The position numbers and the translations under genes are program-made. Shown here piece by piece: positions 572-15,257 of a stretch of 15,363 bases of DNA. The notes beneath the pieces are model-generated. The model saw only the letters and a program-made list of their open reading frames with translations. It did no database searches and was not told the origin of the DNA. Positions within the stretch are counted from its first letter, which is position 1. Each line of letters starts with the position of its first letter. Source of the stretch: an uncultured Oscillospiraceae bacterium (GTDB taxonomy: Bacteria; Bacillota; Clostridia; Oscillospirales; Ruminococcaceae); NCBI GenBank assembly GCA_934446565.1, contig CAKSEO010000055.1, positions 1-15,363 on the forward strand. The letters run 5' to 3'.

Positions 572-606
572 ACCCTTGTAAAAATCGAAATGGGGTGGAA
601 AATGTC

Positions 607-1674
607 GTGAATGCTGTGAATGTACCGATACTGATACCTACATATGACCCGACAGAACGAATTATAGCCGTAGTAAGCGGATTAGTCAGCGTCGGATTCA
701 AACGGCTGGTGATCGTAGATGATGGAAGCCGTCCGGAGTGTGCACCGATTTTTTTGGAACTTGCGGAAATGCCACAGTGCACCGTTCTCCATCACGATGT
801 GAACCGCGGGAAAGGTCGCGGGCTCAAAACCGGATTCACCTATATACTGGAACATCTCCCTGACTGCCCGGGCGTAGTCACCACCGATGACGATGGTCAG
901 CATGCGCCTGAGGATATCCTCCGCTGCGCCGAAAAAATGCAGCAGACCGGCAGGGCAGTGCTGGGTGCGCGGGATTTCAGCTGCGACGACGTACCTCCCC
1001 GCAGCCGATTCGGCAACAATTGCACGCGGTTCGTTTTCCGGGCTCTCTGCGGAATAAAAATAACTGATACCCAGACCGGGCTGCGGGCGCTCCCGCTGAG
1101 TTACCTCCCTGCTCTGACCAAACTCAGCGGCGAGCGTTTCGAGTATGAAACCAATATGTTGCTTGAGATGAAAAGGCTTGGACTGCCGTTCGATGAAGTG
1201 AAAATACAGACCATCTACAACGACAAAAACAGCGGGTCGCACTTCCATCCGCTTCGGGATTCCATCAAGATATACGCCGTTATATTCAAGTTCATGCTGA
1301 GCTCCGGGCTGTGCTCGCTCATAGATATAGGGTTATTTACGCTGATAAACCTGCTGACGGCACCGCTGTTCGGCAATGAAGAACTGCGTATACTCACGGC
1401 AACGGTGGGCGCAAGGGTAGTTTCTTCGCTGGTGAATTTCCTGGTGAACAGGAACGGCGTGTTCCGCTCCGGAAAAAACATCAGGCGCGCCGCAGTACGG
1501 TATTACACGCTCGCGGCGTGTCAGCTTGGGGTTTCCTGGCTGTGCGTCAGCGGACTTGCAATGATGTTCGGCGGCGGAGCTAGCATATGGCAGACATTGA
1601 TCAAGATAATTGTGGATACAGTGCTGTTCTTCATTAGTTTCGGGATACAGCGCGACTGGGTCTACGCCGACTGA
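607..1674 (+). CDS. GT2 glycosyltransferase fused to a GtrA membrane domain
   Basis: Likely a polyprenyl-phosphate glycosyltransferase of the DPM1/GtrB type, which loads a sugar onto a lipid carrier at the inner face of the membrane, with a flippase-like GtrA half. The GT2 domain covers residues 5-215: nucleotide-binding PTYDP, VIVDDG (35-40), and DDDGQH with a DxD metal site at 94-96, then TDTQTGLRA. The GtrA part (225-355) shows about four hydrophobic helices near 226-252, 261-281, 298-320 and 328-347 and ends QRDWVYAD. I chose GTG 607 because TGGGGTGG (591-598) is then a well-placed ribosome binding site; an in-frame GTG at 595 would give four more residues but has no site. It is first of three closely spaced genes. 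The sugar and acceptor cannot be told from sequence. Confidence 0.9.
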   Translation: MNAVNVPILIPTYDPTERIIAVVSGLVSVGFKRLVIVDDGSRPECAPIFLELAEMPQCTVLHHDVNRGKGRGLKTGFTYILEHLPDCPGVVTTDDDGQHAPEDILRCAEKMQQTGRAVLGARDFSCDDVPPRSRFGNNCTRFVFRALCGIKITDTQTGLRALPLSYLPALTKLSGERFEYETNMLLEMKRLGLPFDEVKIQTIYNDKNSGSHFHPLRDSIKIYAVIFKFMLSSGLCSLIDIGLFTLINLLTAPLFGNEELRILTATVGARVVSSLVNFLVNRNGVFRSGKNIRRAAVRYYTLAACQLGVSWLCVSGLAMMFGGGASIWQTLIKIIVDTVLFFISFGIQRDWVYAD

Positions 1675-1686
1675 AAGGAGCAGCCA

Positions 1687-2787
1687 GTGACCGATAATAT
1701 GGTTGAAGAAAGACCGCAGCGCAGCAGACCGCGGTTCAAAAAGAAAAAGAAAAGCCGCGCAGCGTGCGTTGTCCGGCGTATTTTGCTGGTGCTGCTGACC
1801 GTTATACTCGCAGTGCTGGCTGCGCTGCTGGGCGTGGTGTACGTCATGGAGAAAGGTCCGTCGGAAACGGCGCGTAATCTTTTCGTCATATCCTGCCGTG
1901 AAACCAGTGCCATCAAATGGGTGCCGAATATCTTCCTTTCCAGCGAGCAGGTGGAGCTCATTGCAGCGCAGAACGCCATTCAGGAAACCGACGACATAAC
2001 CGACCCGGGACTTGTAAAAATACCCGCTCCGGAGGAAATAAAGGACGCCGCAGGCTCCGACCCGGAAATCGACCCGGACGGCGACGGTATTGACATAATC
2101 GACGTCAGCGGCTCCACTTTTAAGGGAAAGATGATGGTTGTCTACGACCCGTCCCGGGTATTTGTGGGGATTTCCGGAAAGTTCGGACTTGAGGAACAGG
2201 GCAAGACACTGCCGGAAATATACGACTCCTACGACAACATTGTCGGTGCCATAAACGGCGGCGGCTTTGACGACCGCCCCGGGCACATGACCGGCGGCGA
2301 ACCTTGGGGTATCGTCATGTCGCAGGGAGAGGTACTCTGGGGGACTCCGATGTACTATACCTGGGACACCATCGGGATAACCTACGACAACAAGCTTGTA
2401 GTAGGAAAGATGACCGTCCAGGAAGCTGTTGACATGGGTGTGCGGGACGCAGTGAAGTTCGGACCGATCCTTATTGTAAACGGCGAGCCGGTGGAGGCAT
2501 TCGGCGACGGAAGCGGACTGAATCCCCGTACCGCGATAGGTCAGCGGGCGGACGGAGCAATGCTGCTGCTGACGATAGACGGCAGGCAGTCCAACAGCAT
2601 CGGCGCTAGCCTTGCGGACGTACGGGATGTAATGCTGGATTTCGGAGCGGTCAACGCCGCGAATCTTGACGGCGGCTCATCCACAAGCATGATCTACAAC
2701 GGAGAGATGATAAACCAGAACGCTAGCCTTATCGGATTGCGCAAGATGTGCACCGCGATACTTGTGAAAGGCGGTGAAGCACAGTGA
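1687..2787 (+). CDS. Membrane-anchored phosphodiester glycosidase (NAGPA domain)
   Basis: Member of the family named after the mammalian uncovering enzyme (N-acetylglucosamine-1-phosphodiester alpha-N-acetylglucosaminidase, NAGPA); bacterial members are often annotated as exopolysaccharide biosynthesis proteins. A Lys/Arg-rich N-terminus (16-30) precedes one transmembrane helix (about 31-54), so the rest should be outside the cell. After an acidic linker (95-140), the domain spans about 145-361, with INGGGF (189-194), KFGPILIVNG (257-266), NPRTAIG (279-285) and LDGGSSTS (327-334), the expected order of family motifs. GTG 1687 is preferred: AAAGGAG (1674-1680) lies six bases upstream and overlaps the previous stop. 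An in-frame ATG at 1699 is too far. The next gene overlaps by four bases. Its likely role is trimming or remodelling a phosphodiester-linked surface sugar, possibly one made by the upstream transferase. Confidence 0.88.
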   Translation: MTDNMVEERPQRSRPRFKKKKKSRAACVVRRILLVLLTVILAVLAALLGVVYVMEKGPSETARNLFVISCRETSAIKWVPNIFLSSEQVELIAAQNAIQETDDITDPGLVKIPAPEEIKDAAGSDPEIDPDGDGIDIIDVSGSTFKGKMMVVYDPSRVFVGISGKFGLEEQGKTLPEIYDSYDNIVGAINGGGFDDRPGHMTGGEPWGIVMSQGEVLWGTPMYYTWDTIGITYDNKLVVGKMTVQEAVDMGVRDAVKFGPILIVNGEPVEAFGDGSGLNPRTAIGQRADGAMLLLTIDGRQSNSIGASLADVRDVMLDFGAVNAANLDGGSSTSMIYNGEMINQNASLIGLRKMCTAILVKGGEAQ

Positions 2788-3884
2788 GAGGAGAACTTTC
2801 TGCAAAGAGATCCCGCAGCCGCAACGGGACGATAGTTTTTTACTCGATATATTTCGTGCTGCTGGCGGCGGTGCTGTCCGCCGCCGTAGTGGGGCTGGGA
2901 AAGCTGTGGGAATTTTTGCAGCACTATGAGGCTTGTCAGGTCTACCACACCATCGACGCGGTGACATCCGAACTGAATTCCGGTAAACTTGACCTGCTTT
3001 ACAGCGGTATTGAGAGCCCAATATCTCCCTACGAAACAGAGGAAGCGGCGCAGCGTCAGCTATCCGAGCGTTTCGCCGGAGAATTCACGTTTAAAAAGAA
3101 CATCAAGGAGAGCACCAAGGAAAATCCGGTCTACACGATACTGTGCGGAGATGACCCTATAGCGTTTGCGAAACTGGCGCAGACCGGAAAGGACGAGCTT
3201 TACGGCTTTGAGATTTTCGGAGTTGAGAGCGTTTACGGTATTCAGCTGGCGCAGAACGAGAGTGTGAGGATATCCTTTCCGACCGGGTGTATCGCCAAGA
3301 TAAACGGCGTAGAGCTCTGCGACTGGTCGGAGCATGAAATTGATGAAATTCCAGAAGCGGCTAAGTTTGAGTATTACCTTGACAGTGCTCCGAAGATGGA
3401 AAGCTACAAAGTGACCGGGCTGATGTACCAGCCGGAGGTGGAGTTCTCCGACGGAGCCGGAAAGGCGTTAGTAACGCGGCGTGACAACAATGGCGCATAT
3501 AGCTGCGACCTTCCGGTATCGGATGGCGGACTTGCCGAAAAAGCAGGTGAGTATGCGTTGGAGTTCTCGGAGCTGTACTCAAAATATATCGCTAACGACG
3601 CATATTTTTCAGCAATTTCCGGCTATATTCCGCAGGATACGGAACTTTATGATGACCTGCGGACGTACGAGGGGCAGTTTTACACCTATCACAGCGGCTA
3701 CGACTTCACTGAGGAGCAGGTACAGCGTGTGACGCAGTATTCAAATACCTGTTTTGCAGTGCGCGTAAGTTATGTTCACAACGTATATTACGGCGGGGAA
3801 ACCTACAGTTATCCTGCTGACAATACGATATACGCCGTGAACACGGAGTCAGGCTGGCAGACAGTCGGGCTGACTATGAACTAA
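2784..3884 (+). CDS. Membrane-anchored extracytoplasmic protein of unknown function
   Basis: I do not recognise a family. The protein (366 residues) starts with a basic segment (KRSRSRN) and one hydrophobic helix at about 16-38, followed by a long, mostly soluble part, so a single-anchor protein facing outward is likely. The soluble part seems to have two portions: about 45-150, rich in charged residues, and about 160-366, rich in Tyr and acidic residues with beta-strand-like stretches. An NTF2-like fold in each is possible but only a guess. The GTG start at 2784 overlaps the previous stop (GTGA), with AAAGGCGG upstream (2768-2775), so translation is probably coupled to the phosphodiester glycosidase. 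A role with that enzyme at the cell surface is inferred from position only. A palindromic insertion begins at the base after the stop codon. Confidence 0.8.
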   Translation: MRGELSAKRSRSRNGTIVFYSIYFVLLAAVLSAAVVGLGKLWEFLQHYEACQVYHTIDAVTSELNSGKLDLLYSGIESPISPYETEEAAQRQLSERFAGEFTFKKNIKESTKENPVYTILCGDDPIAFAKLAQTGKDELYGFEIFGVESVYGIQLAQNESVRISFPTGCIAKINGVELCDWSEHEIDEIPEAAKFEYYLDSAPKMESYKVTGLMYQPEVEFSDGAGKALVTRRDNNGAYSCDLPVSDGGLAEKAGEYALEFSELYSKYIANDAYFSAISGYIPQDTELYDDLRTYEGQFYTYHSGYDFTEEQVQRVTQYSNTCFAVRVSYVHNVYYGGETYSYPADNTIYAVNTESGWQTVGLTMN

Positions 3885-4247: not shown

Positions 4248-4694
4248 ATGGGAATAATTATAGGATTAGTTCTGGTGGTGGTGATACTGCTGCTTGCCGG
4301 GGTCAGCCTTTCGTATATCATTATAGGTATTGCGGGACTGGTGGCGCTCGCAGCGCTGTTCACTCTGGTGTTTTTCGCGGTGTGCTGGGCGGGGCTGCTG
4401 TGTTCAGTCAGGAAGAAAGCGCATTTCACCAGGTTTGAACGCGGGAATAGATTTGAAGCTGCGGTCTATTCGATCGATGGAGAGGAATACTGTAATGTTT
4501 TCCCGGCGGAATTCGTGTTTCGCGAAAAGCTGTATAAGCCGGAACGTGAAATTGTGGTAAGGGTGACACGGCTGGGCAGAGGGAAACGATGCGTTTTCGA
4601 CCGTAATGCTTTCATAACGTCGATCGTGGGATTGCCAGTGAGTCTGCTGATATTTGCAGCGTTTGGCTGGTTGGCTTTTATGCTTGTAAGGTGA
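4248..4694 (+). CDS. Small membrane protein, unknown function
   Basis: 148 residues. Two long hydrophobic segments at the N-terminus (about 2-20 and 23-53) are followed by a charged domain of about 65 residues (RKKAH onward, with FEAAVYSIDGEEY) and a third helix at about 124-147. The soluble part between membrane segments is reminiscent of DUF3592-type proteins, but the match by eye is weak. ATG 4248 has AGGAG (4236-4240) seven bases upstream; another ATG at 4244 is in a different frame and too close. It has its own promoter and a leader with a hairpin and a possible five-codon reading frame (ATG at 4173, stop at 4188-4190). It ends only 25 bp from the convergent ABC ATPase gene. Confidence 0.75.
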   Translation: MGIIIGLVLVVVILLLAGVSLSYIIIGIAGLVALAALFTLVFFAVCWAGLLCSVRKKAHFTRFERGNRFEAAVYSIDGEEYCNVFPAEFVFREKLYKPEREIVVRVTRLGRGKRCVFDRNAFITSIVGLPVSLLIFAAFGWLAFMLVR

Positions 4695-4719: not shown

Positions 4720-5388
4720 TTAAACGCATGCTATTTTCCCGTCTGCAATGCGTATCAGGCGCTCTGCATGTTTTGCAGTGTTTTCATCGTGGGTTATCAT
4801 CACGATGGTCTTTCCGCACATGTGCAGCGCTTCAAGTATTTCACAAACCACCCGTCCCGAGCGGCTGTCCAGATTACCGCAGGGCTCATCTGCGAGTATC
4901 ATCGATGGTCTCGCTGCAATAGCACGCGCTATTGCAGTACGCTGCTGCTGACCTCCGCTCATTTCACAAGGTCGGTGCCCTGCGCGGTTGAGCAGCCCCA
5001 CCTGCTCAAGAGCTTCCTGCGCGGCCTCCCTGCGCTGCTTGCGCGGAACTCCGCGGTACATCAGAGGTAGTTCGACATTTTCCTGCGCTGTAAGGTACGG
5101 TATCAGATTAAAACTCTGGAACACGAATCCTATCTTGTTCCCGCGAATATGGCTGAGCTTATCGTCCGAAAGCGCAGTCACATTCTCTCCGTCAAGATAG
5201 TACCGCCCGGAGGTTGGCACGTCCAGGCATCCTAGTATGTTCATCAGCGTGGATTTTCCGCTTCCGCTCGCTCCGCAGATGGTGACGTATTCACCGTCCG
5301 TAATATCAAGGGAAACTCCATCCAGAGCCCTGACTGTGCTCCCTCCTACCCGGAAATAACGGCACAGATTTTCAACCTTAATTGGCAT
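4720..5388 (-). CDS. ABC transporter ATP-binding protein, MacB/LolD-like
   Basis: A complete ATPase subunit of 222 residues, of the type that pairs with FtsX/MacB-like permeases in lipoprotein or peptide export. Visible motifs: Walker A GASGSGKST (39-47), Q-loop Q91, signature MSGGQ (143-147), Walker B ILADEP (164-169) and switch His200 in MITHD. The usual EPTGNLD reads EPCGNLD here. I chose ATG 5388 because AAAAGGAG lies eight bases upstream; the GTG at 5397 overlaps that site. No permease gene is next to it: the upstream neighbour is an oxidoreductase and the downstream neighbour is a convergent three-helix protein without an FtsX look. It is therefore an orphan ATPase, and its partner should be elsewhere in the genome. 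Confidence 0.93.
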   Translation of the reverse strand: MPIKVENLCRYFRVGGSTVRALDGVSLDITDGEYVTICGASGSGKSTLMNILGCLDVPTSGRYYLDGENVTALSDDKLSHIRGNKIGFVFQSFNLIPYLTAQENVELPLMYRGVPRKQRREAAQEALEQVGLLNRAGHRPCEMSGGQQQRTAIARAIAARPSMILADEPCGNLDSRSGRVVCEILEALHMCGKTIVMITHDENTAKHAERLIRIADGKIACV

Positions 5389-5432
5389 AACTATCACTCC
5401 TTTTCATGGATAGTCTGCACCGTGTCCGCTTG

Positions 5433-5448: not shown

Positions 5449-5486
5449 TAAAAAAGCCGCCTGCTTCACAAAAGTGACAGGCGGCT
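5449..5486 (-). terminator. Rho-independent terminator of the lipid operon
   Basis: Stem AGCCGCCTG (5455-5463) with CAGGCGGCT (5478-5486), plus an inner TCAC/GTGA pairing. On the minus strand it is followed by a run of six T. It closes the seven-gene leftward operon about 70 bases after the last stop codon. Confidence 0.85.
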
Positions 5487-5554
5487 GATTCTTTATAACA
5501 GATCGATACGCAGATCAACGTCTGCAATATCTCACCCTGGAAATGCAGAAAATA

Positions 5555-6262
5555 TCACTTGTTCATTTCCCAGTGTGCAAGGGTTATCGTTTCGAATCCC
5601 TTCGGTGAAAGTATCGGCTTAGCGATACGCTTCTTGGTTTCCTCGGAAAGCGCGCGGTTCTGAGCGAACTCTGCGCCTGCCTTGGTTATCTCTGCAAGGT
5701 AGCCCTCGCGCTGGCGCTTTGCCTTTTCCGCAATGAAAAGCTCGCCCTCGGGACATAGGATAGCCGTATAGTGACCCTCGCCCGCAATAAGATCAAGCTG
5801 CTTCAGCAGGGCAGGGTACATCGGCTTTTCGTCAACATAGCCGCAGGTAGTGATGACCACCAGGCGCTTGTCATGCATGGATTCATCGCGCAGCTCATGG
5901 AAGCTTGCATTCTTATCTTCGACAAGATTTCCCATGTACGGCAGCATGAACGGCAGGCAGCGGTCTGTAGTCGCTTTCATCTGCGACGGCATTCCGAAGA
6001 AGTACAGCGGGAAACTCTCGATGACGATATCCGCAGCCTTTATCTTCTCGTAGATATCCTGCATGTCGTCCTTGATAACGCACTGTCCGGGGGTCCTGCT
6101 CCAGCAGGAGAAGCAGCCCAGGCAGGGCTTGATGTCCTTTTTATAGAGGTTTACCTGCTCGACCTCTGTGTCCTCAGGAAAGCCTTTCAGGAACGCCTTT
6201 GTGATGTTCAGGGTATTGCTGCGCTCCGCCTTGGGGCTTCCGTTCAATACTAATACTCTCAT
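5555..6262 (-). CDS. Flavodoxin-like NAD(P)H oxidoreductase, iron-sulfur flavoprotein type
   Basis: 235 residues. The start MRVLVLNGSPK..SNT (1-17) is the FMN phosphate loop of the flavodoxin-like NADPH-dependent FMN reductase family. A compact cysteine set follows: C47, C50, C53 and C61 (CLGCFSCW then GQCVIKDDM), the pattern of iron-sulfur flavoproteins that bind a [4Fe-4S] cluster in anaerobes. A PLYFFGMPSQMK segment (about 86-97) is the expected second flavin-contact region. ATG 6262 has AAGGAG overlapping the preceding stop, and the gap to the phosphopantetheinyl transferase gene is 9 bp, so it is the last gene of the lipid operon. It might reduce the acyl product or an accessory substrate. 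Such proteins are common, so a link to the lipid pathway rests on position only. Confidence 0.85.
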   Translation of the reverse strand: MRVLVLNGSPKAERSNTLNITKAFLKGFPEDTEVEQVNLYKKDIKPCLGCFSCWSRTPGQCVIKDDMQDIYEKIKAADIVIESFPLYFFGMPSQMKATTDRCLPFMLPYMGNLVEDKNASFHELRDESMHDKRLVVITTCGYVDEKPMYPALLKQLDLIAGEGHYTAILCPEGELFIAEKAKRQREGYLAEITKAGAEFAQNRALSEETKKRIAKPILSPKGFETITLAHWEMNK

Positions 6263-6271
6263 TTATTCTCC

Positions 6272-6907
6272 TTAATCGTCGTTTTCCGGCAGGGATATGC
6301 TGTAGTAATACACCCCTCCGCACGCTCTGATGATACCTTCTCTGAATATCCCGGACATAGGGAAATCATCCTGCCCACAGCGCTTATAGTAGCTCTCCCG
6401 ACGCGTCCATTCGCGGTAGAACATGTCCGCCTTTTCCGCTCCGGAGCATATTTGCAGACTGTGCAGCTCCCGCGGCTCCATGAATGTTTTCGCGAGCTCC
6501 TCGATACGCTCTGCGCTGGATTCGCGCGCGTACTGGATATCCGCGCCCACAGACGCGTCAGCGCCTGTCGCAAGGCAGCACATAGCCGCCCCCTCTGAAT
6601 GTGAAATGCTGAAATCCACATCGCTGCGGTTAATGATGCAGGGTCTGCCGTTGTTATCGCGGGTTATCGAGAGGTCACGGCGGTCTATACCGTTCTTTTT
6701 CAGGAGGTTATCTAGCAGCAGAAAGCCGCAGGCGCTCTCCTCAAAGCGGTCGCCGTGTACTCCGGACTTTCCGGCTTTGGAAACGAGGTAGTCGAAGTAT
6801 TCCGCGCATACGCCTGAATACTCAGCGCGAGCCGCTTCTACTCGATGAATGAGCTCCGCACCGCCTGATACTATGCAGGAGCTCCAGTCAAATTTAAGTT
6901 CAGCCAT
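6272..6907 (-). CDS. 4'-phosphopantetheinyl transferase, Sfp type
   Basis: Transfers phosphopantetheine from coenzyme A to the Ser of carrier proteins; the obvious partner is the operon's own ACP. In 211 residues the family motifs appear in order: ISITRDNNGRP-like segment (79-89), FSISHSEG (99-106), VGADIQ (120-125, metal-binding Asp123) and FYREWTRRESYYK (163-175) with the acidic Glu171. The usual VGIDIE has Gln at position 125, and the W-T-x-K-E-S lysine is Arg; both are tolerated in some members. I chose ATG 6907: it overlaps the dehydratase stop by eight bases, so translation is probably coupled. A longer in-frame start (6961) would lie deep in the upstream gene. Its presence suggests that the operon's ACP is a dedicated, possibly non-housekeeping carrier. 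Confidence 0.88.
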   Translation of the reverse strand: MAELKFDWSSCIVSGGAELIHRVEAARAEYSGVCAEYFDYLVSKAGKSGVHGDRFEESACGFLLLDNLLKKNGIDRRDLSITRDNNGRPCIINRSDVDFSISHSEGAAMCCLATGADASVGADIQYARESSAERIEELAKTFMEPRELHSLQICSGAEKADMFYREWTRRESYYKRCGQDDFPMSGIFREGIIRACGGVYYYSISLPENDD

Positions 6908-7349
6908 ATACCGCGCTCTTATCCATTGAGGTGAACAGCATGCTTCCCTTTGCCTTAACAACGCCGTCAGCGGATATCACAGCTGAGAACTCATAGGCTC
7001 CGGCGGCAGCCATGGTAGCCTTTACCTCTATCTCCAGCCTGTCTCCGGGAATAACCGGGCGTACAAACTTGAAGTCCTTGACTTTGAGCAGGACGTACAG
7101 CTTGTTTTCATCGTCTGCGGCGCCGTCCGGTGCGATAACAAGGCTGCAAAGCTGAGCGGCGCTCTCAATGAGCAGCACGCCGGGCATTATCGGCGTCTCG
7201 GGGAAGTGTCCCATGAAGTACGGCTCGTTGACGGAAACGCACTTGATGCCCTTTGCGGATTCGTTGGGGACAAGCTCGGTCACGCGCTCTATCATCTGGA
7301 AGGGCGGGCGCTGCTTTATGCGCTGGTTGATTTCAAGAAGATTCATCAT
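6900..7349 (-). CDS. fabZ: 3-hydroxyacyl-ACP dehydratase, FabZ-like
   Basis: Removes water from 3-hydroxyacyl-ACP to give trans-2-enoyl-ACP. The 149-residue length is typical of a single hotdog domain. The signature GHFPETPIMPGVLLIE (47-62) carries the catalytic pair His48 and Glu62, matching the family pattern. The start PPFQMIERV is also characteristic. ATG 7349 overlaps the FabG stop (ATGA) and has GGAGG nine bases upstream. The symbol is a family-level assignment: in this operon it probably serves a specialised chain rather than housekeeping synthesis. With no enoyl reductase beside it, the double bond it forms may be kept. Confidence 0.9.
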   Translation of the reverse strand: MMNLLEINQRIKQRPPFQMIERVTELVPNESAKGIKCVSVNEPYFMGHFPETPIMPGVLLIESAAQLCSLVIAPDGAADDENKLYVLLKVKDFKFVRPVIPGDRLEIEVKATMAAAGAYEFSAVISADGVVKAKGSMLFTSMDKSAVYG

Positions 7350-8080
7350 AAGCTGAGACCTCCGTCAAGAACTATTACCTGTCCGGTGACGTATGCGAAC
7401 GAATCGGAGCAGAGCTGTGCAACTACGTCAGCGACTTCCTTAGCTGTGCCAAGGCGGTGCATCGGGATAGCCTTGAGATATTCCTCTTTCTTGTCCTCGG
7501 GGATAGCGTCCAGCATTTCGGTTTCGATGAATCCCGGAGCTACTGCGTTTACGCGTATCCCGCGGGGGGCAAGCTCCTTTGCGAGGGTGGCGGTCATGGA
7601 GTTCACCGCGCCCTTTGTCGCGCTGTAAACGCCCTGTCCGTCAACGGCGAGGATGGAGCTTACAGAGGATACGTTGATGATAACGCCCTGCTTTTTGCTC
7701 ATCATCTTGAGCGCCGCCTGCTGTGCGCAGTGGAAATAGCCCTTGATGTTGATATCAAGGCTTCTTGTGAGGGAATCCTCGTTTATCATCAGCAGATATG
7801 CGTCATCAACTACGCCGGCGTTGTTGACCAGCACGTCAAGTCTTCCAAAAGCCTTGTGGGCTTCGCGGAACATGTTCTGAACCTCCTTGAGGTCAGCAGT
7901 GTTCGCCTTTATTGCAACCGCTTTCTGACCGAGCGCTTCTATTGCGGAGACTACCTCCTGCGCCTTTGCCTCGTTAGAATTGTAATTCACCACTATATCG
8001 TAGCCGCATTCCGCCAGGCGCAGCGCGCAAGCCTTGCCTATTCCACGGGAAGCGCCTGTTACCAGTGCTACCTTTTCCAT
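7346..8080 (-). CDS. fabG: 3-oxoacyl-ACP reductase, FabG-like
   Basis: NADPH-dependent ketoreductase of the short-chain dehydrogenase family, reducing 3-oxoacyl-ACP to 3-hydroxyacyl-ACP. In 244 residues: cofactor loop TGASRGIG (8-15), NNAG (86-89), and catalytic Asn111, Ser139, Tyr152 and Lys156 in YSATK. The end VTGQVIVLDGG is typical of FabG. A perfect AAGGAGG lies four bases before ATG 8080. It is separated from the ketosynthase gene by a 139-bp gap holding short repeats, and overlaps the dehydratase gene by four bases. The symbol is at family level; a polyketide ketoreductase of the same fold would look the same. Confidence 0.92.
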   Translation of the reverse strand: MEKVALVTGASRGIGKACALRLAECGYDIVVNYNSNEAKAQEVVSAIEALGQKAVAIKANTADLKEVQNMFREAHKAFGRLDVLVNNAGVVDDAYLLMINEDSLTRSLDINIKGYFHCAQQAALKMMSKKQGVIINVSSVSSILAVDGQGVYSATKGAVNSMTATLAKELAPRGIRVNAVAPGFIETEMLDAIPEDKKEEYLKAIPMHRLGTAKEVADVVAQLCSDSFAYVTGQVIVLDGGLSL

Positions 8081-8162
8081 TTGTCCTCCTTAAAAACGAT
8101 TCGGAACCCTAAAACTCTGAACGGAATCCAGGCACCTGCATATAACAGGCGAATTAAAATCC

Positions 8163-8209
8163 GTCGCGAAGCGACACCATAATTCCGCATTCCGAATTCC
8201 GGATTCCGA
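8163..8209. repeat. Heptad tandem repeat and short hairpin inside the operon
   Basis: Four copies of ATTCCGN (8182-8188, 8189-8195, 8196-8202, 8203-8209) lie next to a perfect GTCGC-GAA-GCGAC hairpin (8163-8175). This occupies most of the 139-bp gap between the ketosynthase and ketoreductase genes, the only large gap in an otherwise tight operon. It resembles dispersed short tandem repeats of other bacteria. I see no internal promoter or terminator that I would defend. Confidence 0.6.
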
Positions 8210-8219
8210 ATTTGAAATA

Positions 8220-10553
8220 TTACGCTTTCTTGAGCACTACTGCGGAGTAAGACCCGCCTGCGCCCCATGCCGCCGCCAGTACATACTTGTAACCGGAGAC
8301 GTCAACGTCGGCAGCCTTGCCGCCGATGTATGCCTTAGCGGTACCGCCGAGCTTACCAGCCAGGAGCTTTGCAGCGTAAGCCGCCTGCTCTGCGCCTGCA
8401 GCCGCTCTTGCTTCGCCGATGGTCTCCCTTACTGCGAAAACAGGGATATCCTTGCCGAACACTTTCTTATAAGTGGAAAGTTCCAGCTCGTCTATTGTCT
8501 TGTGACCGTTTGCGAAGCCGCTTACAGCGTCGATGTCAGAAATGGAGATACCAGCGTCAGCGCACGCAGTTTCGATTGCCTTTGCAAGTGCGTCCTCAGA
8601 GCCGCTTACAGTGCCGAATTCAACCGCGTGGTGAGCCATTGCGCAGCCTGCTACCTCGGCGTACTTCTCGGCGCCGCGCTTCTCAGCGGAGGAAGCTTTC
8701 TCAACGATGAGGGAGACCGAACCCTCGCCGAGCACGAAGCCGGGCTTCTCCAGGGAGTAGGGCTTTGTTTCAGCCAGCAGACCCAGTTTGCCGTAAAGCT
8801 CTGCGTCTACATCGGTGTTCTCATCCGTGCCGCTTGCAACCACGATATTCTCGCTGCCGTTGTGGAGTACGTCAGCGGCGTAGCATATGCTCTGCAGTCC
8901 CGCCTGAACGCTGTTCGCAACGGTAACGTTATAACCCTTGATACCGGCGAAAATGCTGAAATATCCGCCAGCGGCATTGTAAACCGTATTCGGGAAAGAG
9001 AACGCACTGCCGTTAGCAGTACCGCCCTCGACAACGGCTTTCTGGAACCCAACGATCTCGGTCATGGGTCCGTCGGAAGTGCCAACAACTATGCCGATAT
9101 CGTTCTCGTTGCTTTCGTCGATGGTGATTTTGCCGTCTGCGAGCGCTCTCATGCCGCTTATCAGCTGGATCTGGCTGAAGCGGTCGAGCTTGCGGTAGAA
9201 CGCCATCTTTATGCCGTGCTCCTTGTAGTCGTCGGAGGTGATAGCGGCGCGGATACCCTTGCCTTCTTCCTCCGTATTGCCGACTACCTCGCCGATACCG
9301 GTGATATAGAGCTTCTCAGCGTTTGTGTTGTCAGGAATTTCGTGGGGCTTCTTTGCAAATACGATACTTGCATTGTTGCCGCCGAACGCAAAGGAGTTGG
9401 AAACCGCGTAATTAACAGGCTTCTCGCGCTTGGTGTTCGGAACGAAATCTATCTCGCCAGCCTTTTCCTTGAGCACCGCAAGGTCCTCGTCAGAATAGCC
9501 GATGGTCGGAGGAACAACGTCCTCGCATACAGACTTGACGGTAAGCACAGCCTCGATAGAGCCAGCCGCGCCCAGACAGTGACCAGTCATGGACTTGGTG
9601 GAGCTTACGGAAAGGTGCTTGTTCTCGTCAAACAGTGTGTGCAGGGACAGGAACTCAGCCTCGTCGTTCTTGGCTGTACCTGTGCCGTGCGCGTTGATGT
9701 AGTCGATGTCGGTGAACTCCAGACCGGAGGTCTTTACTGCGCGTCTGATGGCGCTCATCTGACCTTGTCCGTCGGGACGGGGAGCGGTGATGTGGTGCGC
9801 GTCGGAGCTTACGCCGGAGCCGAGTATCTCGCAGTATATCTTCGCGCCGCGAGCCTTTGCATGCTCGTAGCTCTCTACGATAAGTATGCCTGCGCCCTCG
9901 CCGAGGGTGATACCGTTGCTGTGGTTGAACGGGGAGCATGCGTCAGCCGCCAGAGCGTGCAGAGCGTGGAATCCCGCGAACGCCAGCGATGAAAAGCTGT
10001 CAGAGCCGCCCGCAACAAATGCGTCAGCCTTGCCCGCTCTGATAAGGTCAGCGGCATAGGAAAGGCTCATCGTACCCGCAGCGCATGCGTTTACGATGTT
10101 GGCGGTAGCGCCGTTCAGCCCGAAGTGCTTCGCAACGTTGTTGGCGATAGCGGCAGCCGGCATTCTGAGAATATCGGACGGCTTAGCGGAGCCGGTCTTG
10201 TGCTCATCGGTGTAGTACTTGTCAATGCTTGCGGCGCCGCCGACGCAGTTGCCGACGATAACGCCTATGCGGTCGGAATTATCCGCAGTCACGGTGTAGC
10301 CTGCGTCCGCCAGAGCCTCGCCCGCCGCCTTTATGCAAAGCAGGGAGCTACGGTCGTAATCCTCGCCGGAAAGCTGCTCGGAGCTTTCAGCCACCTCAGC
10401 GCCCTTGTTGGCGTAGCAGCCCTCGGTGCTGACCGACTGTACCTCGCGGATACCGGTGACGCCGTTGGACGCAGCGCTCCAGCACTTGTCCGTGCCGTCG
10501 CCGAGCGCGCAGATAAGTCCGAGACCTGTTACAACGATCCTTCTGTCGCTCAT
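8220..10553 (-). CDS. Double beta-ketoacyl synthase: active KS fused to chain-length-factor-like KS
   Basis: A 777-residue fusion of two ketosynthase domains. The first (about 3-402) has the full triad: Cys157 in NACAAG, His289 in NAHGTGT and His325 in TGHCLGAAG, so it should condense acyl and malonyl units. The second (about 413-777) keeps the fold (FVLGEGSVSLIVE, 606-618; final GAGGSYSAVVL) but, aligned by eye, has Val549, Phe680 and Glu714 at these positions, with Gln550 next to the lost Cys. This matches the active/inactive pairing of KS and chain length factor in type II polyketide synthases, here in one chain. ATG 10553 follows the ACP stop after one base; an in-frame TTG at 10577 lies inside the ACP gene and is unlikely. 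Two partly redundant FabF-type synthases are the alternative, but the loss of all three residues argues against it. Confidence 0.88.
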   Translation of the reverse strand: MSDRRIVVTGLGLICALGDGTDKCWSAASNGVTGIREVQSVSTEGCYANKGAEVAESSEQLSGEDYDRSSLLCIKAAGEALADAGYTVTADNSDRIGVIVGNCVGGAASIDKYYTDEHKTGSAKPSDILRMPAAAIANNVAKHFGLNGATANIVNACAAGTMSLSYAADLIRAGKADAFVAGGSDSFSSLAFAGFHALHALAADACSPFNHSNGITLGEGAGILIVESYEHAKARGAKIYCEILGSGVSSDAHHITAPRPDGQGQMSAIRRAVKTSGLEFTDIDYINAHGTGTAKNDEAEFLSLHTLFDENKHLSVSSTKSMTGHCLGAAGSIEAVLTVKSVCEDVVPPTIGYSDEDLAVLKEKAGEIDFVPNTKREKPVNYAVSNSFAFGGNNASIVFAKKPHEIPDNTNAEKLYITGIGEVVGNTEEEGKGIRAAITSDDYKEHGIKMAFYRKLDRFSQIQLISGMRALADGKITIDESNENDIGIVVGTSDGPMTEIVGFQKAVVEGGTANGSAFSFPNTVYNAAGGYFSIFAGIKGYNVTVANSVQAGLQSICYAADVLHNGSENIVVASGTDENTDVDAELYGKLGLLAETKPYSLEKPGFVLGEGSVSLIVEKASSAEKRGAEKYAEVAGCAMAHHAVEFGTVSGSEDALAKAIETACADAGISISDIDAVSGFANGHKTIDELELSTYKKVFGKDIPVFAVRETIGEARAAAGAEQAAYAAKLLAGKLGGTAKAYIGGKAADVDVSGYKYVLAAAWGAGGSYSAVVLKKA

Positions 10554-10554
10554 A

Positions 10555-10800
10555 TTACGCACCCATGTGTTCCTCAACGTACTTTGTGAGGGTCTCGATG
10601 GTCTGGAAGTTCTCTCTTGCTGCGCCGGTCATCTGAACGCCGAACAGGTTGTCGATACCTGCGATGATCTCGATGGAGTCGATGGAGTCAAGACCGATGT
10701 CGTCGCCGAACAGCTCGCTGGTGTATTCCAGCTCGTCAGCGGGGATTCTCAGGTTCTCTACCAGCATGTTCTTGATCTTCTCTGCGATCTCTGTGTTCAT
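10555..10800 (-). CDS. Acyl carrier protein
   Basis: 81 residues, the usual size of a free-standing ACP. It has the acidic helical composition of the family and the attachment motif GLDSIDSIE (36-44) with Ser39 for phosphopantetheine. The motif reads DSI rather than the DSL of housekeeping ACPs, fitting a pathway-specific carrier. The start ATG 10800 has AGAGG upstream. It lies between the acyltransferase gene (49-bp gap) and the ketosynthase gene (one base gap), so it should be made in step with the ketosynthase. The phosphopantetheinyl transferase four genes downstream is its likely activating enzyme. I avoid the symbol acpP because the housekeeping gene is probably elsewhere. Confidence 0.93.
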   Translation of the reverse strand: MNTEIAEKIKNMLVENLRIPADELEYTSELFGDDIGLDSIDSIEIIAGIDNLFGVQMTGAARENFQTIETLTKYVEEHMGA

Positions 10801-10811
10801 AATTAATACCT

Positions 10812-10845
10812 CTCAAAAATAAAAATTGTCCTGCGGAAATTCCGC
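10812..10845 (-). other. Small hairpin with U-rich tail between acyltransferase and ACP genes
   Basis: GCGGAA (10833-10838) pairs with TTCCGC (10840-10845). On the minus strand it is followed by a T-rich stretch (TTTTTATTTTT). The stem is too short and tight for an efficient terminator, but it could act as an attenuator or mRNA end so that ACP and acyltransferase levels differ. Confidence 0.3.
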
Positions 10846-10849
10846 TTGT

Positions 10850-11548
10850 TTACTTGTTTTCCTCCGGAGCATAGCTTTCGGAATAGGTGTCCGTCTTGCC
10901 GTATTTCTGCTCCAGAATGCCGTAAAGCCGCTTGGTTTCGTCCTCAGCCTGCTTCATCAGCTGCTTTGCGTACTGCGAGTGGCGCATATTATCCGGGCAA
11001 TTGCTCTCGATGGGATTTCCGACTAGCAGCCTCTGTCGCCTGCCGAATACCATGTGATAGCCGCCGTAGATAGCCGCCGGAACTACGCACGCGCCTGTCG
11101 AAGCGCACACCAGCGCCGCGCCGGGCTTGAATTTCTCGATCTTACCCTCCCTGGCGATACCGCCCTCCGGGAAGATTATCAGAGAGCCGTTGCGGTGGAT
11201 GAGCTCCTCCGCGGTGGCATACCAGCTCGCGTCCGCGCCGTCAAGGTCGATGGGGAAACACCTGCACCAGCCGATCATCGTGCCGACGCCCTTTTTGTCG
11301 AACCAGCTCTTTTTAACGAGTACATATGGCTTGTACCGTCCCAGTACTGCGCCTGTGAAAGCTCCGTCGAAGTGGTGCGTGTGGTTGAACACGAACACTG
11401 CGGGCTTGCCCTTTAGCTGCTTCTTAACGGACTTGTCGACCCACTCGACCTTAGGTCTGAAAAGGAAATACACTATCCAGGTGATGATGACCTGATATAT
11501 CTTTCCCCAGGTGGACTGTTTCAAGGGGCTTTTATTGTCGTTCTGCAT
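10850..11548 (-). CDS. PlsC-type 1-acyl-glycerol-3-phosphate/lysolipid acyltransferase
   Basis: 232 residues with the two hallmark motifs of glycerolipid acyltransferases: NHTHHFD (55-61; His56 and Asp61 of HX4D) and FPEGG (126-130). A hydrophobic stretch at about 17-31 anchors it to the inner face of the membrane. It would take an acyl chain from ACP or CoA and place it on a lysolipid or another hydroxyl acceptor. ATG 11548 has AGGGAG six bases upstream; a longer frame to 11584 lacks a site. It is the first gene of the leftward operon, directly after the promoter. Standing next to an ACP, it may use this operon's acyl-ACP. It could also be the ordinary PlsC of phosphatidic acid synthesis; the sequence does not decide. 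Confidence 0.88.
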   Translation of the reverse strand: MQNDNKSPLKQSTWGKIYQVIITWIVYFLFRPKVEWVDKSVKKQLKGKPAVFVFNHTHHFDGAFTGAVLGRYKPYVLVKKSWFDKKGVGTMIGWCRCFPIDLDGADASWYATAEELIHRNGSLIIFPEGGIAREGKIEKFKPGAALVCASTGACVVPAAIYGGYHMVFGRRQRLLVGNPIESNCPDNMRHSQYAKQLMKQAEDETKRLYGILEQKYGKTDTYSESYAPEENK

Positions 11549-11593
11549 TATACGCTCCCTTCGGGCACCGCTTTTCAGCAACACCTATATGTA

Positions 11594-11622
11594 ATTATAC
11601 CTGGATTTCCTTTTTATTTCAA
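11594..11622 (-). promoter_or_regulatory. Promoter of the seven-gene lipid operon
   Basis: On the minus strand: TTGAAA (11622-11617), a 17-bp spacer, TATAAT (11599-11594). The start would be near 11587, about 40 bases before the acyltransferase ATG. It is the only strong leftward promoter that I see in the operon. Confidence 0.82.
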
Positions 11623-11669
11623 TGGACAATCAGCACCACTACGTCCTATAAGGGACAGTTTGTTGCATA

Positions 11670-11685
11670 ACTGTTGCGCAACAGT
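11670..11685. promoter_or_regulatory. 16-bp perfect palindrome, candidate operator
   Basis: ACTGTTGC followed directly by GCAACAGT. A second TGTTGC lies just upstream (11661-11666). The palindrome is centred about 90 bases upstream of the lipid-operon start and about 235 bases upstream of the cellobiose phosphorylase start. No regulator gene is adjacent that I can link to it. Confidence 0.4.
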
Positions 11686-11858
11686 CAGAACAAAACGTTT
11701 TTTCTCCGAAATCAACAAAATCTGCGGCGTGCTTCGTGGCAAATTGGTGATTTTTCCTTTAAATATGAATTGCAAACACACGCACTGGATTTGTTCAATA
11801 TTACTAATATTTGCCCCTGATTTTCGGTTTTTAAGTAAAAATCCAAAGCAAAAAAAAT
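11686..11858. other. AT-rich spacer, no gene seen
   Basis: The stretch is AT-rich with long A and T runs. A reading frame of 84 codons crosses it (11660-11914), but it has no ribosome binding site and no family resemblance, and it runs through the promoter of the next gene, so I do not call it. Confidence 0.4.
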
Positions 11859-12034: not shown

Positions 12035-14509
12035 ATGAAATTCGGTCATTTTGATGACAAAAATCGTGAGTATGTAATTACTTCACCCCGCACCCCCTAT
12101 CCGTGGATAAACTACCTCGGAACCCAGGGTTTCTTCTCTCTGATATCCAACACGGCAGGCGGCTACAGCTTCTATAAGGACGCTCGTCTGCGCCGTATCA
12201 CCCGTTACCGCTACAACAACGTCCCCATCGACATGGGCGGCAGATACTTCTACATCAAGGACGGCGACACCATCTGGAACCCCGGCTGGTCCCCTGTAAA
12301 GACCGAGCTCGACAGCTACGAGTGCCGTCACGGCATGGGCTACACCATCATCACCGGCAAGAAGAACGGACTCAAGGCTGAGGCTACTTTCTTCGTTCCG
12401 CAGAACTACGACGGAGAAGTGCAGCAGCTCGTTCTCACTAACGAGAGCAACTCCGCAAAGACTTTCAAGCTGTGGTCCTTTGCAGAGTGGTGCCTGTGGG
12501 ACGCTCAGGACGACTGCACAAACTTCCAGCGTAACTTCTCCACCGGTCGTGTTGAGGTAGTAGGCTCCACCATCTACCACAAGACCGAATACAGAGACAG
12601 ACGCGACCACTTCGCATTCTACACCGTAAACGACACCATCGACGGCTATGACACCGACCGCGATTCCTTCATCGGTCTGTACAACGGATTCCACAATCCG
12701 CAGGCTGTTCTCGACGGCAAGGCTACCAACTCCTTCGCTGACGGCTGGTCTCCCATCGCTTCCCACTACAAGGAGATAACCCTTGCGGCAGGCGAGAGCA
12801 AGACACTCGTGTTCATCCTCGGCTATGTTGAAATGCCTGTTGCTGAGAAGTTCGAAGCTGACGGCAAGACCATCAACAAGGTAAAGAGCAACGCAATGAT
12901 CGAGAAGTACAACACTCCCGAGAAGGTTGCCGCAGGTCTTGCAGAGCTGAGAGAGACATGGGACAAGCTCCTCGGAATCCTCAACGTTGACACTCCGGAC
13001 GACAAGGTAAACCGCATGGTCAACATCTGGAACCAGTACCAGTGCATGGTTACATTCAACCTCTCCCGTTCCGCTTCCTACTTTGAGAGCGGTATCGGAC
13101 GCGGCATGGGCTTCCGTGACTCCAACCAGGATGTCCTCGGTTTCGTTCATCAGATCCCCGACAGAGCAAGAGAGCGTATCATCGACATCGCGTCTACCCA
13201 GTTCCCGGACGGCGGCTGCTACCATCAGTATCAGCCCCTCACCAAGAAGGGCAATGCAGACATCGGCGGCGACTTCTCCGACGACCCGCTGTGGCTCATC
13301 CTCTCCGTTTCCGCTTACATCAAGGAGACCGGCGACTGGAGCATTCTCGACGAGATGGTGCCCTACGACAATGATATGTCCGTTGCACAGCCCATGCTCG
13401 AGCACCTCAAGGTTTCTTTCTACCACATCGTAAACAACCTCGGCCCGCACGGTCTGCCCCTCGCAATGCGCGCAGACTGGAACGACTGCATAAACCTCTC
13501 CTGCTACTCCGACACTCCCGGTGAGTCTTTCCAGACCTACACCAACCCGAAGTTCAAGGCAGAGGGTGGCTACTCCAAGGTTGCAGAATCCGCATTCGTG
13601 GGCGCGCTGTTCACCTATGCAGGCCCGAACTATGTTCAGATACTCAACCACCTCGGCAAGACCGATGAGGCTGCAAAGGCACAGGCAGAGATCGACAAGA
13701 TGAAGAAGGTTATGATGGATTCCGCATGGGACGGCGACTGGTTCCTCAGAGCTTACGACGCTGAGGGCAAGAAGATGGGCTCCAAGGAGTGCGAGGAAGG
13801 TCAGATCTTCATCGAGCCGCAGGGCTTCGCCATCATGTCCGACATCGACGCAGAGGCTTCCAAAAAGACCCTCAAGGCTATCGACGAAAGACTGAACACC
13901 CAGTACGGTCTGGTGCTCAACAACCCCGCATTCACCAAGTACTATATCCAGTACGGTGAGATCTCCACATATCCCGGCGGATACAAGGAGAACGCAGGTA
14001 TCTTCACTCACAACAACGCATGGATCATCTGCGCTGCCGCATACGCCGGCGAGGGCGACCAGGCGTTCAAGTACTACTCCGAGATCGCTCCGGCGTTCAC
14101 CGAGGACACTTCCGATATCCACAAGACCGAGCCTTACGTTTACGGTCAGATGATCGGCGGTAAGGACGCAGGCGCTGATATCGGCAAGCAGGGCGACAAC
14201 TTCGGTCAGGGCAAGAACAGCTGGCTGACCGGTACAGCAGCATGGAACATGGTTGCTATCTCCCAGTACATTCTGGGTATCGCAGCTGACTTCGACGGCC
14301 TGAAGATCGACCCGTCCATTCCTCACGAGTGGGACGGCATGAAGGCTACACGTCAGTTCCGCGGCGCTACCTACGACATAACAGTCAAGAACCCGAACCA
14401 CGTTTGCAAGGGCGTTAAGAGCATGACCGTAGACGGCAAGCCCGTAGATGGCAATGTTATCCCTGTAATGGACGGTGGCGAGCACACCGTTGAGGTAGTT
14501 CTCGGCTGA
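12035..14509 (+). CDS. cbp: Cellobiose phosphorylase (GH94)
   Basis: Splits cellobiose with phosphate into alpha-glucose 1-phosphate and glucose in the cytoplasm, saving ATP when cellulose fragments are eaten. At 824 residues it matches the size of clostridial cellobiose phosphorylases, and its start ([16 protein letters not shown], then [11 protein letters not shown] and [17 protein letters not shown]) follows the Clostridium thermocellum enzyme as I recall it. The N-terminal part (to about 300) fits the beta-sandwich, the middle (about 320-740) the alpha/alpha barrel. The ADWND motif (480-484) holds the catalytic acid Asp (481 or 484). No signal peptide is present. ATG 12035 has AAGG six bases upstream. 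Codons end mostly in C or G (AAG, GAC, TAC, TTC, ATC), unlike the flanking genes, which suggests high expression. A cre site and promoter precede it; a terminator follows. Confidence 0.95.
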
Positions 14510-14530
14510 TAGCTGACAGACATCACAAGA

Positions 14531-14564
14531 GGCGCCGGAGCATAAAGCCCCGGCGCTTTATTAT
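14531..14564 (+). terminator. Terminator after the phosphorylase gene
   Basis: GCGCCGG (14532-14538) pairs with CCGGCGC (14550-14556), with further pairing inside, followed by TTTATTAT. The ribosome binding site of the next gene starts one base after this tract. Confidence 0.8.
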
Positions 14565-14576
14565 AGGAGGTGTGCG

Positions 14577-15257
14577 ATGTTCAGAGGGACTATACTGCTG
14601 ATAGACCGTTTTTCCAGCATGAATACGCTGATAAACAGCTATCTCACTGCGTCCGGATTCGTGGTGGAATGCGTGCGCTCGCTGAGTGAGCTTGGTGCGA
14701 TCAGGCTGAATACAGTTCATCTTGCGCTGTTGGATATCGGCACTGCCGGTGACAAGCTGAATTCCGTGCTCAGTCAGATGAAAGCGGCTGGCGTTCCGGT
14801 AATAGTACTGACTTCTGAAAGCGATTACTCCGGTCGGCTGACTGCTTTAGAGCTGGGTGCCGCTGACGTCATGAGCCGCCCGCTGGATATTGCCGAACTT
14901 GTAGCCAGGATACGCGCCGCGCAGGCGCGCACACAGGTGTCAGTGTCAGGCTTCGACCGCCCTCCGGCAAGTTTTGGCGGGCTTTTAGTGGATATTTCAA
15001 AGTACCACGCTGAGCTTGACGGCGAGCCTCTCAATATCACGCCAAAGGAGACGGCTTTGCTGTATCTGCTGATAAGCAGCCCGGACAAGGTCTTCAGCCG
15101 CGATGAGCTGTCCAGGCAGCTTCGCAGCTCCGGCAGCTCGTCTGACCGCACAGTCAACATGTTCATAAGCCGACTGAAAAAGGCGATAGGGCGCTATGGA
15201 CAAAATATCGAACCCGTACGCGGGGTGGGATACAAATTCAAAAGCGATAACAAATAA
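14577..15257 (+). CDS. OmpR-family response regulator with an eroded receiver domain
   Basis: 226 residues: a receiver domain (about 4-117) and a winged-helix DNA-binding domain (about 128-222; ITPKETALLYLLISS, VFSRDELSRQL, DRTVNMFISRLKKAIG, VRGVGYKF). The phosphate-accepting Asp53 (LALLDIG) and Thr79 (VLTS) are present. The acidic pair that binds Mg is reduced to Asp10 followed by Arg (LLIDRF), and the invariant Lys of the K-P motif is Arg101 (SRPLD). Phosphorylation may be weak or absent. ATG 14577 has a perfect AGGAGG six bases upstream. That site directly follows the terminator of the phosphorylase gene, and I find no promoter in between, so it may be expressed only by readthrough. No histidine kinase is in the window; the gene starting at 15361 could be one. 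Confidence 0.88.
   Translation: MFRGTILLIDRFSSMNTLINSYLTASGFVVECVRSLSELGAIRLNTVHLALLDIGTAGDKLNSVLSQMKAAGVPVIVLTSESDYSGRLTALELGAADVMSRPLDIAELVARIRAAQARTQVSVSGFDRPPASFGGLLVDISKYHAELDGEPLNITPKETALLYLLISSPDKVFSRDELSRQLRSSGSSSDRTVNMFISRLKKAIGRYGQNIEPVRGVGYKFKSDNK

Follow-up and report, generated by a model that had tools for sequence, protein, structure and literature searches.

A seven-gene operon with a fused ketosynthase and chain-length-factor-like protein in an uncultured Oscillospiraceae bacterium: a candidate highly reducing type II polyketide pathway

Highly reducing type II polyketide synthases (PKS) are described, in the available part of PMC10698177, as systems in which a ketosynthase (KS) with its chain length factor (CLF), a ketoreductase (KR) and a dehydratase (DH) yield polyenes. 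The accessible text on the pks cluster of Limosilactobacillus (Lactobacillus) reuteri R2lc lists a 688-aa 3-oxoacyl-acyl carrier protein (ACP) synthase, an ACP, a KR, a DH and a phosphopantetheinyl transferase (PPTase) and no enoyl reductase; the cluster is required to produce an orange pigment with absorbance at 405-409 nm and is tied to activation of a mammalian receptor (PMC6498181). Granadaene, a haemolytic polyene pigment, is made by the cyl genes, which by the excerpt of PMC6985545 encode fatty-acid-like KS (CylH/I), KR, DH, ACP and PPTase. Aryl polyene (APE) clusters contain KS, CLF, KR, DH and ACP parts (available part of PMC8358021). Here we describe an operon of similar composition from an uncultured Oscillospiraceae bacterium, at positions 5449 to 11622 of contig CAKSEO010000055.1 (assembly GCA_934446565.1). 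The whole contig stretch analysed, 15,363 nucleotides, is called the window below.

The ORF (open reading frame) list and Pfam agree with the initial annotation on the seven genes and their order, and place them on the minus strand. The first encodes a PlsC-like acyltransferase (LPLAT; 10850..11548, PF01553, E 1.8e-19, ATG start taken from the sequence) and the second a dedicated ACP with a DSID site (10555..10800, PF00550, E 3e-10). The third encodes a fused ketosynthase protein (8220..10553), which consists of a KS half (residues 1-409, 9327..10553) and a CLF-like half (residues 410-777 and the stop codon, 8220..9326). They are followed by a FabG-like KR with intact Ser-Tyr-Lys (7346..8080, PF13561, E 4.7e-66), a FabA/FabZ-type DH, more exactly FabZ-type, with His48 and Glu62 (6900..7349, PF07977, E 3.8e-24), a 4'-phosphopantetheinyl transferase (6272..6907, PF01648, E 6.1e-10) and a flavodoxin-fold FMN-reductase-like protein with the motif Cx2Cx2Cx7C at Cys 47, 50, 53 and 61 (5555..6262, PF03358/PF02525). 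Spacing between adjacent genes is -8 to 139 bp. As had also been annotated, Pfam and NCBIfam show no aryl ligase, canonical enoyl reductase, malonyl transferase or thioesterase among the seven genes.

The operon has two features of a highly reducing type II PKS, a KS with a CLF partner and a dedicated KR, DH and ACP with active residues. The most probable function, at a probability of about 0.6, is a pathway of this type that makes a conjugated polyene acyl-ACP and releases it onto a lipid. A close precedent is the L. reuteri cluster, likewise of gut Bacillota, where the KS/ACP/KR/DH/PPTase set is the same by description; judging from its length, the 688-aa synthase is probably a KS-CLF fusion as well. 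According to the available gene list, the pks cluster has an acetyl-CoA carboxylase, a malonyl transferase, an MFS transporter, a PadR regulator and a metallo-hydrolase that the operon lacks, whereas none of the 15 genes listed encodes a PlsC-like acyltransferase or a flavoprotein, both present here. The KS, KR, DH, ACP and PPTase are also common to the operon and to cyl as far as the latter is described in the excerpt, whereas the CylF/GcvT-like gene, the malonyl transferase and the exporter of cyl have no counterpart among the seven genes by Pfam. By analogy, the operon may work like these two pathways without several of their parts. If so, a lipid-transfer ending and a near-constant flavoprotein would be added to the known parts list. 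The initial annotation knew of no described product; this holds narrowly, for this type of organism, because pigments of the functionally similar L. reuteri and granadaene clusters are described in other Bacillota. Since such pathways have been linked, in other Bacillota, with a haemolytic pigment and with receptor activation, an unassigned relative in common gut species merits a chemical look, and a product could be looked for in Ruminococcus bromii (ATCC 27255) and Lachnospira eligens (ATCC 27750), carriers that can be cultivated.

A plasmid of Priestia megaterium (locus L102, 4797-14656) carries a fused KS-CLF together with a malonyl transferase, KR, DH, ACP, PPTase, thioesterase, GcvT-like protein and MFS pump. 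The fused protein is 34.6% identical to that of the window, and its halves adjoin the window-type halves in the tree described below. Judging from the GCV_T gene, this cluster is probably akin to granadaene cyl. More distant systems differ in other ways. The ishigamide-type highly reducing type II PKS of actinomycetes has a KS/CLF heterodimer, whereas the window's protein is fused, with a KS half whose sequence resembles FabF and PDB 9s5h_B more closely than 6kxd; the operon also adds the acyltransferase and the flavoprotein. APE clusters share the KS, CLF, KR, DH and ACP, whereas their aryl starter enzymes and ApeI-type dehydratase are missing from the seven genes (the ApeI-type model PF22818 gives 22.5 bits, below the cut-off of 28.5). 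The available part of a study of arylpolyene clusters of the pig gut does not mention Ruminococcus (PMC9964075). Celluxanthenes or flavoaffinins (the yellow affinity substance) are polyene pigments of strict anaerobes in the same class as the window's host, the cellulolytic Clostridia; the excerpts available ascribe them to an iterative type I PKS (PMC12144888, PMC11839114), whereas the seven proteins of the window are discrete except for the KS-CLF fusion.

The initial annotation called the fused protein a double ketosynthase. Two KS-type halves are indeed fused, but by their residues only the first one is catalytic. In an alignment of 82 rows (the window, 80 related loci and L. eligens) Cys157, His289, Lys320 and His325 of the KS half are identical in all sequences. 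The CLF half, in which residues 410-777 are 28% identical to the first half over 355 aligned positions, has no Cys opposite Cys157 in any of the 81 readable rows, the position being Phe, Ile, Val, Ala, Asn, Ser, Tyr or Trp, and opposite the two KS histidines there are mostly Phe and Glu and never His. Gln550, adjacent to the Cys position, is retained in 81/82 rows. The classical interpretation of Gln substituting for the active Cys was dropped, as it is Val549, not Gln550, that the alignment sets opposite Cys157. An AlphaFold2 model of the protein (pTM 0.89, mean pLDDT 80, some loops below 50) has as its best whole-chain PDB match 6riw, the PfaC KS-CLF of the polyunsaturated fatty acid (PUFA) synthase, with TM 0.77 by query length, rmsd 7.8 and 18% identity; the remaining 49 PDB rows listed have alignments of about 420-450 columns, that is, of one half. 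The VIA-align rows span model residues 1-404 only and thus do not test the CLF half. Because the KS residues are intact, those of the CLF half are lost and the full-length fold matches 6riw, the protein is best read as a KS with a putative built-in CLF-like partner, not as two ketosynthases.

The tree contains 91 rows: 29 KS and 29 CLF halves from the 82 fused proteins, 25 FabF and eight others. The KS halves form one clade (SH-aLRT 100) apart from all 25 FabF, so they do not group with housekeeping FabF; had they done so, this would by prior definition have spoken against the initial annotation. The FabF proteins and two Streptomyces KS are on a separate branch (SH-aLRT 96). The CLF halves, together with the second halves of the fused proteins from the P. 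megaterium and Streptomyces plasmids, stand apart from all KS (99). A branch that unites the KS halves with the KS of the Priestia and Streptomyces fused proteins and with PDB 9s5h_B has an SH-aLRT of 88, which is not strong, in a tree that does not include Iga11 and ApeO.

A search with the CLF half, in which 7998 candidates were scored, gives 946 proteins at E <=0.001. Loci were collected by a scan of genome contigs, and the best 80 of 123 relatives were kept. Gene content was called by tblastn with the window proteins (E 1e-4) in the 57 loci whose sequence extends at least 1.4 kb upstream and 3.3 kb downstream of the fusion, the other 23 being dropped. The ACP and KR are present in all 57 loci, the flavoprotein in 56, the DH in 31, the acyltransferase in 30 and the PPTase in 22. 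All seven genes occur in the window's order in 22 loci, only the PPTase is missing from seven, and 26 retain just the ACP, KS-CLF, KR and flavoprotein; one further locus lacks the PPTase and the flavoprotein, and one the acyltransferase and the PPTase. The seven-gene arrangement is more than chance, because 22/57 loci keep it. The flavoprotein is nearly constant, unlike the acyltransferase and the dehydratase. Over all 80 loci it was matched in 71; of the nine without a match, six break off within 2.7 kb.

The presence of the fusion is patchy. Full-length fusions were found in 14/396 genomes from the family of G001, the genome closest to the window (320 genomes of this family have a match, mostly of FabF type only), in 4/60 genomes of the genus of R. 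bromii and in 6/394 of its order. Named carriers are R. bromii ATCC 27255 and YE282, Ruminococcaceae bacterium P7 and L. eligens ATCC 27750. Among the papers listed, titles and beginnings of abstracts on R. bromii or L. eligens contained no description of the operon, which does not establish that none exists. The fusion of L. eligens, 53.5% identical, is on a large plasmid, and its set is accompanied by genes for a malonyl transferase, a carboxyltransferase and PlsX, as well as by a flavoprotein that has 42% identity with that of the window. An alpha/beta-hydrolase and a TetR-type regulator lie upstream of this set, and no acyltransferase match was found in the stretch. In all 26 Saccharofermentans-type loci (within L048-L077) an asparaginase-like protein and a protein of about 210 aa are encoded upstream of the ACP-KSCLF-KR-flavoprotein core, and in 23 of the 26 there is also an EAL/GGDEF protein of about 1285 aa. 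The 210-aa protein has no Pfam or NCBIfam match; its Cys, His and WG motifs suggest to us that it is papain-like. In those of the loci that were inspected, the core precedes a FabH-FabK-FabD-FabG-FabF set.

Patatin-like proteins adjoin 16 loci of the collection. In L050 (14109-15594), L041 and L047 a TetR-type regulator and a patatin-like protein with DUF6363 are directly downstream of the operon. Genome G403 of the R. bromii genus (C60:48751-51060 and C52) has a second full-length fused KS-CLF, 44% identical, as well as KS matches within open frames up to 6648 aa.

According to the available part of PMC12144888, Ruminococcus flavefaciens DSM 25089 lacks both a cex-like cluster and celluxanthenes. 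The operon as the source of the yellow pigment of R. flavefaciens was considered and is neither supported nor excluded. No R. flavefaciens record is among the best 80 of the 123 relatives. We took at least eight cohesin matches as a sign of a genome resembling R. flavefaciens. In the family of G001, 24/396 genomes have that many, none of them among the 14 KS-CLF carriers; this zero overlap is weak evidence, because only 0.85 would be expected by chance. One to three cohesin matches occur in 7/14 carriers.

The genome G001, whose locus L001 has a fused protein 98% identical to that of the window, served as a proxy for the window's genome. It has FabH, FabG, FabF, AccB, FabZ, AccC and carboxyltransferase genes consecutively on one contig, separate from the operon. 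G002 and G005 have the same row, and R. bromii ATCC 27255 (G003) and P7 (G004) have FabK, FabD, FabG, FabF, AccB, FabZ, AccC and carboxyltransferase. FabD is in single copy in each of the five genomes G001, G002, G003, G005 and G006. The enoyl reductase FabV was found in G001, away from the operon, and in G002, and FabK is above the cut-off in G003 and G006; in G005 neither was found, FabI not having been searched for. Counting those of the operon, PPTase and PF01553 have three matches each in G001. With the separate fab operon of G001, the operon is not the sole fab set of that genome; a sole set would have been the second outcome to speak against the initial annotation. The single FabD elsewhere in G001 fits the proposed supply of malonyl units from primary metabolism. 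The proposal of a dedicated KS/CLF-KR-DH-ACP set, separate from the primary synthesis of fatty acids, is thus supported. That the flavoprotein supplies an enoyl reductase lacking in primary synthesis was rejected for G001, G002, G003 and G006, given their FabV or FabK genes.

One possibility is that the operon is an auxiliary branch of fatty acid synthesis, in which the KS, KR and DH act with a housekeeping enoyl reductase to give unsaturated or unusual phospholipid chains and the second half of the fusion is a structural partner only; the model is anaerobic unsaturated fatty acid synthesis of the FabN/FabO type. Curated models do call the KS FabF-like and the DH FabZ-like, a PlsC-like acyltransferase is in the operon, PlsX is beside the L. 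eligens set, and the Saccharofermentans-type cores inspected stand before a fab set. However, the patchy presence (14/396 and 6/394 genomes) ill suits a basic membrane function, G001 has FabF and FabZ elsewhere, and the residue losses of the CLF half and the operon's own PPTase (22/57 loci) are more typical of polyketide sets. We consider such a branch unlikely.

The companion enzymes retain their active residues. The Hx4D and FPEG motif residues of the acyltransferase are kept in 45-46 of 47 rows, one of which is gapped, ACP Ser39 in 78/79 with one gap, the Ser-Tyr-Lys residues of the KR in 81/81, and His48 and Glu62 of the DH in 53/54, again with one gap. Pairwise distances of the other operon genes correlate with the distances of the KS half (Spearman 0.69 to 0.90; 0.88 for the acyltransferase over 1081 pairs). 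This is expected of co-inherited genes, yet the pairs are non-independent throughout and common host descent would produce the same pattern.

The fold match to PfaC, whose fused KS-CLF fold is also predicted for the window protein, brings in another explanation, a dissociated relative of the Pfa synthase. Its KS-CLF, KR, DH and PPTase would act with a flavin-dependent reductase, so that double bonds become partly reduced or methylene-interrupted. The operon does also include a KR, DH, acyltransferase, PPTase and flavoprotein, the last in 56/57 loci. However, likeness to PfaC is expected of any KS-CLF fusion; PUFA synthases are multidomain proteins with tandem ACPs and the reductase PfaD, whereas the window encodes stand-alone proteins without tandem ACPs and, by Pfam, without a PfaD-type reductase. 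PfaD is of the nitronate-monooxygenase type, and the flavoprotein has the NQO/azoreductase fold. A Pfa relative therefore seems quite improbable.

The acyltransferase bears on how the chain ends. Release onto a lipid is suggested because this gene is the first in the operon, has intact motifs and is co-inherited; in loci without it the chain must end otherwise. The product could instead be a short or cyclised acid or a free pigment, the acyltransferase merely remodelling lipids. This would agree with the 27/57 loci that have no acyltransferase, with the L. eligens stretch, where an alpha/beta-hydrolase is upstream and the acyltransferase has no match, and with the patatin-like proteins next to 16 loci. 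It is nonetheless very unlikely, as the acyltransferase heads the operon with its motifs intact and distances that track the KS, and Pfam and NCBIfam show no cyclase among the seven genes.

In the polyketide pathway that we prefer, the PPTase would arm the ACP, and the housekeeping enzymes FabD and acetyl-CoA carboxylase would supply malonyl-ACP. Condensation of malonyl units would fall to the fused KS-CLF, whose CLF half would set the chain length, and the KR and DH would convert each beta-keto group to a double bond. As the operon encodes no enoyl reductase, the chain would remain conjugated. The PlsC-like acyltransferase would then transfer the polyene from the ACP to a glycerolipid or a similar acceptor, making a membrane polyene lipid, and the flavoprotein would perform some redox step. 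We infer the product, its conjugation, acceptor and chain length, the order of steps and the role of the flavoprotein; the conjugated polyene course is suggested by the description of highly reducing type II PKS and the precedent of L. reuteri. A bolder version is a strictly anaerobic, stand-alone system by which gut Clostridia, including R. bromii, would load their membrane glycerolipids directly with polyunsaturated or polyene acyl chains; the NQO-fold flavoprotein with its four cysteines would then be a reductase of a new type for the building of polyketide or fatty acid chains. We regard this version as rather unlikely.

Several points weigh against the preferred pathway. The KS half scores nearer to FabF than to the ishigamide KS (285 vs 200 bits), and the whole protein, in two stretches, just reaches the NCBIfam fabF model (494.5 vs 493.75 bits). 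The more distant homologue P0071, one of 18 homologues in the first alignment, has a Cys in the CLF half. The tree is a quick search with SH-aLRT values only and with long branches flagged. Both the DH and the acyltransferase are missing from the core in 26/57 loci, and L038, L078 and L079 have no flavoprotein match despite at least 9.5 kb downstream. Saturation of the chain by FabV acting in trans is conceivable. Finally, the polyene product is reached by inference, and the pathway leaves the flavoprotein unexplained. Taken together, the initial interpretation of the operon is partly supported.

The single promoter and single terminator proposed initially were both found. The promoter, TTGAAA-17-TATAAT (11594..11622, minus strand), scores 11/12; the window has 23 promoter-like sites against 11.4 expected, two of them at 11/12. 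Its -35 and -10 boxes are identical in 8/8 aligned upstream regions (the window and seven chosen close relatives), and the pattern TTGA-N19..21-TATA[A/C]T precedes the acyltransferase in 31 of the 43 loci with enough upstream sequence, compared to 0.8% of shuffled upstreams. A shared upstream motif as an exact pattern was found in 0/161 loci. The intrinsic terminator (5449..5486, minus strand) consists of a hairpin at about 5455-5486 and a T run, with -23.2 kcal/mol and z -4.9, and none of 200 shuffles is equally stable.

Upstream of the promoter there is an 11-nt direct repeat, GCAACA on the minus strand (11661..11682), a putative regulator site. A GC[AG]ACA pair occurs in 7/43 related upstreams, six of which are from close relatives, and in none of the shuffles. 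Within 11640-11700 there are, besides the GCAACA repeats with their 11-bp spacing, an 8+8 palindrome, ACTGTTGC/GCAACAGT (11670-11685), and GTCCTATAAGGGAC; all of these are common to close relatives. The 139-bp gap between the KS fusion and KR genes contains a tandem 14-nt pair AATTCCG(C/G)ATTCCG at 8181-8208; the length of this gap varies among close relatives.

Directly past the operon terminator, at 4720-5397 on the minus strand, lies a gene for a lone ABC transporter ATPase, with the ORF 4248-4694, which has no Pfam match, beside it; no permease was seen nearby, other ORFs of this area not having been scanned. The region 12035-15257 on the plus strand encodes a GH94 cellobiose phosphorylase, followed by an ORF that by appearance, without a scan, resembles an OmpR-type response regulator; both were matched near the operon in L001 and L014 only. 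A link between the operon and the cellobiose phosphorylase is unsupported, the match being near the operon in 2/80 loci, both from close relatives, with many loci short. At 595-3884 on the plus strand there are a polyprenyl-phosphate glycosyltransferase-like protein, a 366-aa protein without an NCBIfam match and a further ORF of 366 aa.

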